From Periconia sp. R9002 (Eukaryota > Ascomycota > Dothideomycetes > Pleosporales > Periconiaceae): a stretch of 64,000 bases of DNA. Of this stretch, positions 3,570-64,000 are shown one piece after another; positions within the stretch are counted from its first letter, which is position 1, and every line of letters begins with the position of its first letter. Position numbers and translations under genes: made by a program. The notes under the pieces were generated by a model. The model made no database searches and had not been told where the DNA came from. It saw only the letters and a list, made by a program, of their open reading frames with translations. Location: assembly GCA_023627715.1 (NCBI GenBank), contig JAMAHW010000092.1, positions 62,001 to 126,000 on the forward strand, in the 5' to 3' direction.

Positions 3570-3845
3570 CTATGCCCGCTTGAAAACCGGTTCCTCCTCC
3601 ATCTCCGAGCCACCATTATCAGCCCCGTGAGGGAAGAAGACGTTGAATGGGCGGCCCTCTGCTTGAGTATCGGCCACGGCGGGGCCACCAGTACGGTCTA
3701 TATCGTATTTGGCGCGGGTCTCTGGGTTGGAGAGGATCGCGTAGGCCTCACAGGCCTTCTTGAATGCGGCGGCGATCTCGGCGGATGTGGCGTCAGGATT
3801 GAGGCCGAGGCTTGCGTAGTGGTCGGTGGCGGGCTTGCTCGCCAT
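3570..3845 (-). CDS. Small J-domain-like protein lacking the HPD motif
   Basis: The frame encodes 91 residues, starting at ATG 3845. Residues 8-47 read like helix I/II and helix III of a DnaJ domain: DHYASLGLNPDATSAEIAAAF, then ACEAYAILSNPETRAKYD. The part that normally carries the end of helix II and the HPD loop, needed to stimulate Hsp70 ATPase, is absent: AAFKK runs straight into ACEAY. No intron that could supply the missing part is visible. The acidic tail ends in EMEEEPVFKRA. The protein could be a J-like protein with an Hsp70-independent role or a truncated relic. A TA-rich stretch at 4045-4056, about 200 bp upstream, could serve as a TATA element. Confidence 0.6.
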   Translation of the reverse strand: MASKPATDHYASLGLNPDATSAEIAAAFKKACEAYAILSNPETRAKYDIDRTGGPAVADTQAEGRPFNVFFPHGADNGGSEMEEEPVFKRA

Positions 3846-4244
3846 GTTGGATGGGTTTGTTGAGGGGGATAATTTGGAAGACGGGTATTTGTAGATCGTC
3901 GAGATGTGTGTGTGGTGAGTAAGCTGGCACGTGCCGGGAAGACGTTTGGTGATGTCTTGAGGATTTGTGACGATTTTTCGTGAAAGTGTGGGAAGTGTGA
4001 AGGTGTGGTGGAGAGGAGATGGGATTGCGTGAGTGCGGAGAGGGATATATATATACTGGTAGCTATGCGCTCAGGTTGAGGTGAAGAGGGCTGGAAAGTC
4101 GAGGTGACGACGACAAAAGGGACTCGCAGGACCTTTTTGACTCGGTGAAGTAAGATTCTTGGGATTCGGTGGTGAAGTAGGAATTTGGCCCTAGGCAGCA
4201 GCAAAACAACAAGGTCGTCGTGCTCCGCAATGAACTGACGTCTC

Positions 4245-5915: not shown

Positions 5916-6005
5916 ATACACTCTCCATCCCTACCTGTGTCGATACCCAGGGTAGCAATACTCTGTGAGGATCAATTTCAATTTCAATTTCATACACTCT
6001 CCATC
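5916..6005 (-). mobile_element. Micro-element copy A with 14-bp direct repeats
   Basis: A 62-bp unit (5930-5991) is bracketed by exact 14-bp direct repeats ATACACTCTCCATC at 5916-5929 and 5992-6005. On the + strand the unit begins near CCTACCTGTGTCGATACC, contains the near-palindrome TACCCAGGGTA at 5945-5955, and ends in three CAATTT-type repeats. The same unit recurs at 30.5, 57.0 and 62.2 kb with different flanking repeats, so the flanks look like target-site duplications. In the orientation used here the tail is the 3' end and lies on the right. Strand is given relative to the copies at 30.5 and 62.2 kb. It has no coding capacity. Confidence 0.75.
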
Positions 6006-13706: not shown

Positions 13707-14056
13707 GGATAGAAAAACGAAATCGGTCGAAGGCTAGGGCATTCTTAACAGGATTGATTGCACATCACTGGGAGCCGCTCTCTGGTTCCTCTGGCAATAA
13801 TCACTGCCTCACGAGATCGTGAACATTGCGAACAAACAATGGGTATTTGTGATTTGCGCTAATACGAAGATGACCAAGGAAAAGTATAAATTGATCATCG
13901 CAGAGTATTTTTACCCTGGATATGACACAGGAAGAAGAAAACGACAACGTCCTCGGCCAGGACGGACACGCAGACAACTGTTTGCGAGGACGCCAAAACA
14001 ATCACTATTATTTCAACCAGGAAGAACTGCGGCAGCTTCCCTTGAAGCTCGCCAGC
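13707..14056. other. Short convergent intergenic region
   Basis: The permease (plus) and the GFA protein (minus) converge here. No motif or gene is supported. Confidence 0.5.
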
Positions 14057-30033: not shown

Positions 30034-31162
30034 TATAGAATTTATGAAATTTAGGAGTGTAGTCGTTGTAGTTGATAGTTTTCTTGTTGTGGTATTTTCA
30101 AAGTTCAAGTATGAATTTCGAATTTTGAATTGATCCTCCAAAGTCAAGTATATATACCATTGGCAGAATGCCAAGACTGGCTATTGCATCGACAATAAGC
30201 ACATTGTTCATTTGCTCCTTCCAAGTGCGATTTCCAGATTGTCTGGACCATTCTGAAGACTCTCAAGTGTGTTGATGAGAACAAAGGGGCCCCCACCCGT
30301 TCCTTTGTGATAACTCCAGGCCCATCGACGATCCCGATGACAACAAACCCCCAATGGCATCTCCGCCGTGCAAGTGCTATTAGTATATATCTACGCTACA
30401 ATGCTAAGATTGAATAACAAAGCGTTGCCCTCTTCTTTGTCACACTGGTCAACGATGATCAATAATCTTGCTGGCCGCATTCAGAACTGTATCCGGCGAG
30501 ATGAACGAATTTTGAATTGATGCTCAAAGAGTATTGCTACCCTGGGTATCGACACAAGTAGGGGACACTCGGCGAGATGAATAGTCGCAGAATTTCTTAA
30601 TGACAAATGCATCATGTCCAAGAGAAGTGCCGCTATGTATTCACGTCGCTAAATCTCATTGCAGACTCAGGACTGTAACTCTATACATCAATATGAATAC
30701 TATCGAATCTTCGCAGTCGAATGCGATGTCGTGGGGAAGGAGGGCCAAGAGACACTAGGAACAAAGAGAAAGTTTCCGAGTCTGTACAACACTGCATCAA
30801 AGCAAACACCATATTCTCACAAAATGCATGTAGGACATTCCATTCCCGGCTTGCCTGTTTTCAGGATAGCTTTTAATTTTTTTTCCTTGGTGCCAGAACT
30901 ATGAGAGCTGCTGATTGCGAGTTTGTTCAGATGTCTGTTGTTTGCTTGATTGTGCGTTTGGGTGATCGAATTCATGTTTGATCAATCGATGGGTTTCACT
31001 ATGTTTGCCCTCTGAGTAGGGCATAGATAAATCCTCCGCCCATTCGCTTTCTTTATTCCTCCACACCCGATTCCTTCACCACTGCACATAGGATTTACTT
31101 CTTCACACCCACATACTTTTTGATTCGTCTCTCAAGCTAAACAGATCACTGAACTTTACACA
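30034..31162. other. Intergenic region with micro-element copy B
   Basis: Besides the insertion at 30494-30581 no gene is supported. The two flanking genes diverge. Confidence 0.5.
30494..30581 (+). mobile_element. Micro-element copy B with 12-bp direct repeats
   Basis: The unit 30506-30569 contains AGTATTGCTACCCTGGGTAT and GACACAAGTAGG and is bracketed by exact 12-bp repeats CGGCGAGATGAA at 30494-30505 and 30570-30581. Extending the comparison three bases to the left gives 13 of 15 matches, both differences being transitions. The AT-rich tail (GAATTTTGAATTG) is at the left, so in the retroposon sense this copy is oriented opposite to copy A. Confidence 0.72.
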
Positions 31163-31600: not shown

Positions 31601-32738
31601 TATACCCGTTCAAGCACCAGGTAGTTCACCTATGAAATTTCCATTCTCTGCTCAACTCACCGCTGACCAGTCCTAACAGGGGAAGCGCGAATGGAGTAGA
31701 ATTCGGCAATTCAAGGGGACTGTACTGTGTGTGGCATATCAAGGATTCGGGGGAATGTGGTTTGAAGGGGTAGGAGAAGGAGATATCATCAGTTTTGTTA
31801 TGACTTCGACCAGAAAGCGAATGTATCTTCACATCTGAGTTCTTTTTGTATGTGTCGAATAAACTGTGTCGCATGCGCTTCCTCAGCCAGGACGTTTCTG
31901 GGACGTTTTGTTAGGTGGGGAAATCGCGAACAGTCAAATTGCTATTTGATTAAATTAATACATGCATATGTTCTTCATGTGACTTCTGTTTACCAGTGTG
32001 CTTGTAGTGTATATCCCAGCGTCCTTATAATTTTTTTTAGCCTTGTCTTATCATGTGAACGGTTTCGACTAGACTATAAGAAAAACAAAATTAGTGCAAA
32101 AATTTGATTATTTGAAAAACAGTTAAAAATTCTTTGATGAAGCCCATGTTTCACTACGTTATACCGTCTAATCTCGTTTTTCCTTTCACGTAGACAGAAT
32201 ATAATAGGTAAATCCTGCAAACTCGCAAAATGTTAGCTAGTATTCACTAGCTGTAATTCAAGAATTATATACAATAAGGGATAATTTAGTAAGGAAATAA
32301 CCAATAGTACTGGGTGGATAGTGGTACGTTGGTACGTATCTTGGATCAATCTTTTTCTCTTCTAGATAAAGGGGAAATGGGCTACCGAAAGTTTTTTTTG
32401 ACTTCGCAAACGATTGGTGTAAGCACTCAGGGTATCAAACCAGGTAGGAATCTCAGGTAACTGAAATGGGCTATATACATCATATGTATATGTATGTGGA
32501 TTCAATGTTGATTGCATAAATAGTCCGTGATCTACATGGTTTATTCTGACTTACATGTCAAGTGGTATGTAAAGTGCGATCGCAACCTACGTCATAATCA
32601 AAACGACATATATATATATATATACTGAAATTACGTCCGTATTCAATTCTAGGATATCATCTCTACATATTTCTACATACCCACATCCAGAACTCCGTCC
32701 CAGAAAATGCATCGAGAACACACATATTCCATTCTCAC
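31601..32738. other. AT-rich convergent intergenic region
   Basis: More than 1 kb without a gene. Contains a TA dinucleotide microsatellite at about 32608-32625 and several A/T runs. Confidence 0.55.
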
Positions 32739-56853: not shown

Positions 56854-57506
56854 AGATATAGAAATTGTGAAAGTCAGAACAATATTAGGCCTCAATGATT
56901 GACACGATCCAAATGAAATAAGAACACAAATAAAATCTGGAACCATCAAATTTGTGAACAGCGCATATGAGGTCCAACTAGCCTGCCTGTGTCGCTACCT
57001 AGGTAACAATACTCTGCGATGATTCATGAGATCCAACTAGATGGTTGGAACGACTTGAGATAATCGTTGGCACGAAACAAAGGGTTGTTGAGATGAGCGT
57101 AATCTCATTGAAATGCCTTAGGATTAAATAAAGCAGCGTTGACCGGCAACCAATATCCGTTCATGGCAGCCTTGTCGGATTCGAAGATAGGAAATAGCTC
57201 AGTGAGTGACCCCGACAGTTTATAGTCAATACAGGGTTCGTCTGTTCGTAAGGAAAGTAAGTGGCAGTTAAACATAAGGCCACGAGCGATGCTATCGTGA
57301 GAACTTTAGAGGCGGTGGGGAAGGTAGTTGTGGCTCATCGAATGGTTTCTTGGCTTGGAGAAACCGTCGGCGATCGGCATCGGCTGACTCTGAAGGGTCG
57401 GTAAACTTGAATTATGAAAGTGATAAATAGATGGCCCATAGTGAGAGGTATTTCTCGTATTATGCAGGAGAGAGTTTTGATCATGATGGTTGTTAAATTC
57501 ACTGAG
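56854..57506. other. Intergenic region with micro-element copy C
   Basis: Apart from the insertion at 56967-57040, nothing is supported. Confidence 0.5.
56967..57040 (-). mobile_element. Micro-element copy C with 15-bp direct repeats, tail missing
   Basis: A shorter unit (56982-57025, 44 bp) holds CCTGCCTGTGTCG and TACCTAGGTA, related to the head and central near-palindrome of the other copies. It is bracketed by 15-bp repeats ATGAGGTCCAACTAG (56967-56981) and ATGAGATCCAACTAG (57026-57040), one G/A difference. The CAATTT tail is reduced to ATTC. This is the most diverged copy. Confidence 0.62.
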
Positions 57507-62178: not shown

Positions 62179-62265
62179 GGTAAAACTATCCATGAAATTG
62201 AATTTGATCCTCACAGAGTATCGCTACCCTGGGTATCGACACAGGTGGAGGGTAAAACTATCCAT
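62179..62265 (+). mobile_element. Micro-element copy D with 15-bp direct repeats
   Basis: A 57-bp unit (62194-62250) with GAAATTGAATTTGATCC at the left (tail end) and TACCCTGGGTA in the middle, ending GACACAGGTGGAG. It is bracketed by exact 15-bp repeats GGTAAAACTATCCAT at 62179-62193 and 62251-62265. It lies 25 bp from the 3' end of the broken kinase gene. Confidence 0.75.
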
Positions 62266-63120: not shown

Positions 63121-64000
63121 ATTACTTGTGCGGGGTGCAATTGTATGACAGAATGGGGGTCGAACTCATTGTTATATACGAGCATGAGGCCCGTGCGCAG
63201 CCCCTTGCTTTTTGTGGCACAGTCAATCACGAGTCTCACAATGCATAGTTAAAGCGAGCAGGTGGGTAGCTCCAAAGATTTTTCTTTATTGATAACATGA
63301 TAAACGAATGACCTGTTGTTGAATTTTCCGTAAGTTCGTCCAGAATCTTAGGCTTAGAGTCTGTGGCTATCTCAGTCAGATGTTATATTATGCAGGTATA
63401 GTTGAAATCTTCCAAGGTTGGGTTGAGGAGCGCTCCAACTTTACTTCAACTCACATTGATAGAAGCTATCTCTCCAGCATTAACGTTGATAGCCCTCGTT
63501 GAAGCGGAAGCCCAAGACCTATTTGCCCAGCACAACATCAGGACGTACCACGAGTCCCAAGCAAAGGGAATCAAAACACTTTCCATACACACACAAACAG
63601 GCGGCCTCAATATCTTCAGGTAGGACAAGCACACACATTAAAACAGCGCGTTCGCCCTTCACGTTCACCACAATAGCGCATGCAAGAGAATCCATCGTAG
63701 CGTGTACGTCGCGAAGTTTGTCAAAAAGTAGATTGCATTGCTTATCCAAAGAATGCATTCTGGCCGTTGAACATGGATCATCACTGCAAAAATTATCCGA
63801 CTTAGTTCAAGAGCCAAAAAGAAAAAACATACAACAGCAGGTATTCGCTAGTGGTCACCCACCTAACTACTAATCCGCCGGTACCATGCTTAAGTACAGC
63901 TGAGCGGACGGGAAGCTCTGTTTTCATGGTCCTATGGTCGTATGTGATGGATATCTTCGTGACCAGGATTCATATACACAAGCGTTCGCCCCCTTTTCGT
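63121..64000. other. Right edge: possible fragment on the minus strand
   Basis: The minus-strand frame at 63519-63758 from ATG 63758 encodes MHSLDKQCNLLFDKLRDV, then AIVVNVKGERAVLMCVL, which looks like a real protein segment, and the same frame remains open upstream. I do not recognise the family and see no full gene, so it may be an exon or a relic. The overlapping plus-strand frames are weaker. The remainder shows nothing. Confidence 0.3.

Follow-up and report, generated by a model that had tools for sequence, protein, structure and literature searches.

What kind of mobile sequence leaves insertions of only 44 to 64 bases, each framed by a direct repeat found at that locus alone? The question is raised by a stretch of 64,000 nucleotides from Periconia sp. 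R9002, termed the window here, which the sequence-only reading had described as host to a micro-element far below the length of a SINE. To place these units, a 42.9-Mb assembly of one strain (267 contigs) was surveyed and, besides the window, about 296 kb of partly overlapping loci was sampled, picked by family match and not randomly.

Copies in the window and across the genome

Each of the four units lies where the sequence-only reading had placed it, with locus-specific direct repeats of 12–15 bp, three of them exact and one with a single mismatch (table 1). All four are real copies, and the list was incomplete: an nhmmer match revealed a fifth, which is older, longer and diverged. The CAATTT-type tail with a variable number of units is likewise real; the 'conserved head' CCTACCTGTGTCGATACC turns out to be an internal piece of a longer sequence and not the beginning of the family, and the four units enter the family sequence at different points. 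With up to three mismatches, the 18-mer CAATACTCTGTGAGGATC from the right half of the unit has five matches in the window against 0.04 expected, and the fifth of them falls in the additional copy at 13884-13986. The 15-mer CCTGTGTCGATACCC from the left half, at the same mismatch limit, is a weaker control: it has five matches where 1.4 are expected, a count that 2 of 100 shuffles also attain, and the match at 32430 is not a family copy.

Table 1. Positions and properties of the window copies, the shared-region interruptions at C52 and the longer copies.
Feature	Location	Strand	Length	Remarks
Copy 1, left target-site duplication (TSD)	5916-5929	.		ATACACTCTCCATC; exact partner at 5992-6005
Retrocopy 1, 5′-truncated (probable)	5930-5991	+	62 bp	three tail units
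Copy 1, right TSD	5992-6005	.		exact match to left TSD
Copy 2, first TSD repeat	30494-30505	.		CGGCGAGATGAA; exact
Retrocopy 2, 5′-truncated (probable)	30506-30569	-	64 bp	
Copy 2, second TSD repeat	30570-30581	.		exact
Copy 3, first TSD repeat	56967-56981	.		one mismatch to partner
Retrocopy 3, 5′-truncated (probable)	56982-57025	+	44 bp	lacks a tail repeat; the most diverged copy among the four
Copy 3, second TSD repeat	57026-57040	.		one mismatch to partner
Copy 4, first TSD repeat	62179-62193	.		GGTAAAACTATCCAT; exact
Retrocopy 4, 5′-truncated (probable)	62194-62250	-	57 bp	
Copy 4, second TSD repeat	62251-62265	.		exact
Fifth copy	13884-13986	-		no clear duplication
5S rRNA gene	63826-63945	-		Rfam RF00001, 85.8 bits
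Three C52 interruptions of the shared region	L081: 5862-5916, 6005-6056, 6114-6167		52-55 bp each	
Long copy L090	L090		1104 bp	flanked by exact 17-bp repeats (17/17); X on opposite strand, 165 residues
Long copy C30	L092, L093			exact 15-bp repeat (15/15); X over 154 aligned codons, three TAG
Long copy L091	L091		1021 bp	10-bp repeat (10/10), weaker; X on opposite strand, 175 residues
Long copy L082	L082		about 610 bp	flanked by exact 15-bp repeats; start of a frame on opposite strand

Genome-wide, a 28-bp core is matched 318 times at up to three mismatches, and its reversed control pattern 0 times; the window contains at least three of these matches against about 0.5 expected at the genome-wide density. 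Searching 71 loci and the window with nhmmer gave 81 matches, leaving 73 copies once duplicates were removed. Their flanking repeats were scored at +1 for a match and -3 for a mismatch with a cut-off of at least 9, the control being left and right flanks paired randomly. This combination of genome search and boundary test, which the sequence-only reading had named as its check, bears out insertion: 38 of the 73 examined copies have a repeat at or above the cut-off, against 1.9% of mispaired flanks (24 of 43 for the window and loci L001-L038). The other 35 copies have no repeat scoring at least 9, which counts against retrocopying; they may be older.

The duplications are 9–20 bp long, 33 of the 38 falling between 12 and 16 bp, and mostly open with AT immediately behind the ...TTTC tail (first base A in 25/38, second base T in 26/38, preceding base T in 25/38). 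A nested pair at L056 adds to this picture: a younger copy sits inside the tail of an older copy of opposite orientation, and excising it together with one 14-bp repeat rebuilds the older copy with its tail, after which ATACGATGAACGTGC behind the tail matches ATATGATGAACGTGC at the left as the older copy's own repeat. The repeat counts, the duplication statistics, this nested pair and the duplications around long copies described below give good support to the target-site duplication and LINE-type retroposition that had been proposed from the window.

Short, non-coding and numerous units could also come from a MITE or other DNA transposon, but duplication length varies here, and the copies agree at one end and differ at the other. 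Terminal inverted repeats, of which the sequence-only reading had seen none, are not visible on inspection (rather than a dedicated scan) of the four window copies and others either; a DNA transposon is extremely improbable. Among other contents of the window, a HET protein has an unnamed protein as its best match (86% identity), followed by one from Bisporella sp. (44%), with further matches in a Fusarium (41%), Phialocephala (45%) and Cadophora (45%); judged by these matches, the host has the look of a leotiomycete.

A longer element behind the short units

The left edge of the family varies among copies, the longer ones reaching about 130 bp, 330 bp or 1.0–1.1 kb in the upstream direction; the 3′ end with its CAATTT-type tail is constant, and the 5′ ends are scattered. 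In 43 copies (L001-L038 and the window), start points spread across positions 1–68 of a 131-base query, a spread bounded by the query's own start. Upstream of the supposed head, GGCCGAGGACGTTACCAAGTG... is common to many copies; a pattern from this part has 116 genome matches (73 forward, 43 reverse; control 0), and a pattern further upstream has six, among them the copy C52 considered below. In long copies the sequence goes on as far as a hairpin (GCAGCCCAGCG...CGCTGGGCTGC) that lies some 330 bp away from the tail. Besides C52, nine long copies were tested for duplications, and a duplication close to the boundary of homology is present in seven of them (L082, L083, L077, L084, L086, L087 and L075); L080 has none, and at L088 the repeat match lies off the element's edge.

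Because longer copies reach 1.0–1.1 kb, the short units appear to be severely 5′-truncated LINE-type retrocopies. As read from their sequences, the inserts of about 60 bases are true copy-and-paste insertions, the broken-off ends of a longer element, and the notion of a micro-element far below SINE length does not hold. The sequence-only reading had itself listed, among the outcomes that would refute it, a unit proving to be part of a longer known transposon; the unit does belong to a longer element, although the searches linked it to none already known. Several copies of only 44–77 bp do have duplications of their own, as an independent micro-retroposon of about 60 bp should, but at about 60 bp the copies share no 5′ end, and many continue upstream. 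These longer copies refute an independent unit, which we consider highly improbable.

A free-standing SINE of about 100–130 bp that contains an internal polymerase III promoter, and whose longer copies would be read-through or chimeric, would account for other features. Many copies begin around the same region, CTTATCACGTGCGC, and matches drop from 116 for the head pattern to 6 just upstream, a rough comparison in that the pattern lengths differ; by eye, TGGCCGAGG and GTGTCGATACC look like the A and B boxes of such a promoter. However, start points are scattered, and the 5′ part is common to elements of 1.0–1.1 kb flanked by duplications. ARAGORN found no tRNA at six loci, and Rfam gave one unrelated sub-threshold match at five loci and, in the window, nothing but the 5S gene. 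A SINE is thus unlikely, if still worth keeping in mind. An origin from tRNA, 5S or 7SL was rejected, having no support from ARAGORN at the six loci or from Rfam at the five loci and the window.

We place high confidence in the reading that the units are 5′-truncated retrocopies, which would be produced when the 3′ end of a longer RNA is copied by target-primed reverse transcription. The template RNA would run antisense to a frame termed X, described below, and end at the CAATTT-type tail. A LINE reverse transcriptase working in trans would start synthesis at the tail through short AT pairing, slipping on the tail, and would frequently halt after 60–130 bases.

No description of this retroposon family was found among open-licence papers, but several known systems resemble it. 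LINE-made processed retrocopies are marked by target-site duplication, 5′ truncation and poly(A). Duplication and truncation are shared by the family, as far as the excerpted account of such copies goes (PMC3747384); unlike them, it has hundreds of copies and a CAATTT-type tail with no poly(A), and the lack of poly(A) weighs against the retrocopy reading; its descent from a spliced source is unsupported at one of the intron junctions discussed below (junction 2). With Mg-SINE (PMC2104539) and the tRNA- and 5S-related AfuSINEs (PMC5063351), as excerpts of both papers present them, the family has in common that it is short, dispersed, flanked by duplications, equipped with tail repeats and presumably LINE-dependent; it differs in that no tRNA or 5S relation was detected, in its 1.0–1.1-kb parent with frame X and in the commonness of extreme 5′ truncation. 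In the excerpted report on Magnaporthe, MINE elements are retrocopies of the 1.1-kb WEIRD RNA made by the machinery of the MGL LINE, with 10–20-bp direct repeats and template switching, and WEIRD is reported to lack coding capacity and to occur invariably in fusion with the 3′ end of a LINE (PMC2104539). Compared by description, the Periconia family likewise consists of fungal retrocopies with direct repeats and a candidate template switch (the L082 join, below); unlike WEIRD as that excerpt describes it, the family has its own tail, an opposite-strand frame and an intron-bearing relative, and no LINE fusion was seen (PMC2104539).

Frame X and the search for a partner LINE

Frame X is present in three copies of 1.0–1.1 kb, where it lies on the other strand from the presumed retroposed RNA; in one of these copies it contains three stops (table 1). 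The 5′-side starts of L090 and C30 lie about two bases or less apart, and X is preceded by a hairpin and, judged by eye, a TATA-like box. X proteins are 26–48% identical in six pairs of at least 118 codons, and the alignment of X1, the version obtained from C52, with the X of L090 scores 123 against 51 for the best of 200 shuffles. By these alignments, X is a protein family; it may be a helper of its own element or a passenger. Pfam returned 0 families for three X proteins, and homologue searches of word-limited sensitivity returned none for X1 at E <= 0.001 and none for the X of L090 at 0.01; the protein database used for the latter gave fungal matches for a window gene. Further X copies contain many TAG and TAA stops, a pattern that resembles repeat-induced point mutation. 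At L093 (C30), a second X-type element lies tail to tail with the first, in opposite orientation.

The sequence-only reading had also suggested looking for a LINE whose 3′ end shares the tail. RVT_1 has 73 matches in the genome, 65 of them with stops, and six of these loci were opened (L069-L074) and scanned for the family tail, core or head. None held a fitting LINE or one sharing the tail, L071 included, which again counts against the retrocopy reading. L069 (C175) holds a LINE with a 1271-codon open frame and an RVT_1 match; its relative L070 (C14) has several split frames and a 3′ end of (AC)n. This LINE, whose endonuclease and RNase H look is judged by eye only, is apparently not the partner of the family.

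The intron-bearing copy C52

C52 (L081:4639-6167) contains 12 GT-AG intron-like pieces that are absent from its relatives and lie in the RNA orientation, antisense to X. Three of them interrupt the region shared with other copies (table 1); each starts with GT, ends with AG and has a CTAAC- or TTAAC-like branch site 13–15 bases before its end. Among the aligned relatives, no insert of at least 30 bases occurs at junction 1 (9/9 spanning rows), junction 2 (11/11) or junction 3 (11/11), and in a genome search the first insert is skipped at C113, C106, C2 and C69. Every row that spans junction 1 or junction 3 joins cleanly there; at junction 2, 9 of the 11 rows, including the nearest relative L082, retain 5–15 bases that splicing would excise, these bases being absent only from L083 and L084. 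By the background rate, with sliding slack allowed, the chance of two such clean inserts, those at junctions 1 and 3, is about 1e-6; the nine further upstream pieces were chosen by eye for splice signals and are less independent. With the introns removed, C52 holds the open X1 of 173 codons on the opposite strand, and unspliced frames of the stretch reach at most 118 residues. In a genome search that skipped very common words, the 12 introns match C52 only, and they match neither one another nor anything elsewhere in the approximately 360 kb examined.

C52 might be the intron-bearing source gene of the family, the other copies being retrocopies of its spliced RNA. It is the only intron-bearing copy seen, with no target-site duplication found; without its introns it is 97.8% identical to the intronless L082 over 315 bp; junctions 1 and 3 are clean; and the copy C130 aligns to C52 exons 1–4 without introns 1–3, weakly around the second. 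However, splicing should also have removed the bases retained at junction 2, and because these persist in 9 of 11 rows, L082 included, intron gain is likelier than a spliced source. Moreover, X1 is interrupted at C52 and free of stops only without the introns, and intronless copies with an identity of just 26–48% have kept a conserved X, a pattern that points to X living in the intronless copies and to a recent gain at C52. X conservation and junction 2 together favour insertion of introns into C52, which on this comparison is more likely an intron-gaining copy than the source of the others; a source gene seems rather improbable.

L082 also has a composite structure. Positions 3638-3965 are 97.8% identical to C52, and most of the upstream part has no BLAST match to it; such a join of a C52-like part and a divergent 5′ part is the pattern expected from a template switch.

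More tentatively, we suggest as a possibility that the family's transposed RNA runs antisense to its own X and that a single copy, C52, recently gained about a dozen unlike spliceosomal introns of the same orientation. Gain of many introns is also the subject of work on Introners; unlike Introners as excerpts of two papers describe them, the 12 introns of C52 have no match beyond that locus in the genome search, do not match each other and are not dispersed (PMC9860276, PMC4457414).

The tiny and puzzling insertions in the window would thus represent ordinary LINE-type truncation at its most extreme, and the long copies point to a fungal retroposon whose protein gene lies on the other strand from its RNA. 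C52 and the near-identical, intronless L082 form a rare pair for studying recent multi-intron gain in one place. If the gain is true, it would silence X at C52, and a spliced RNA from C52 would continue to match elements that lack introns. In addition, the introns might disrupt DNA homology, shielding C52 from repeat-directed mutation.
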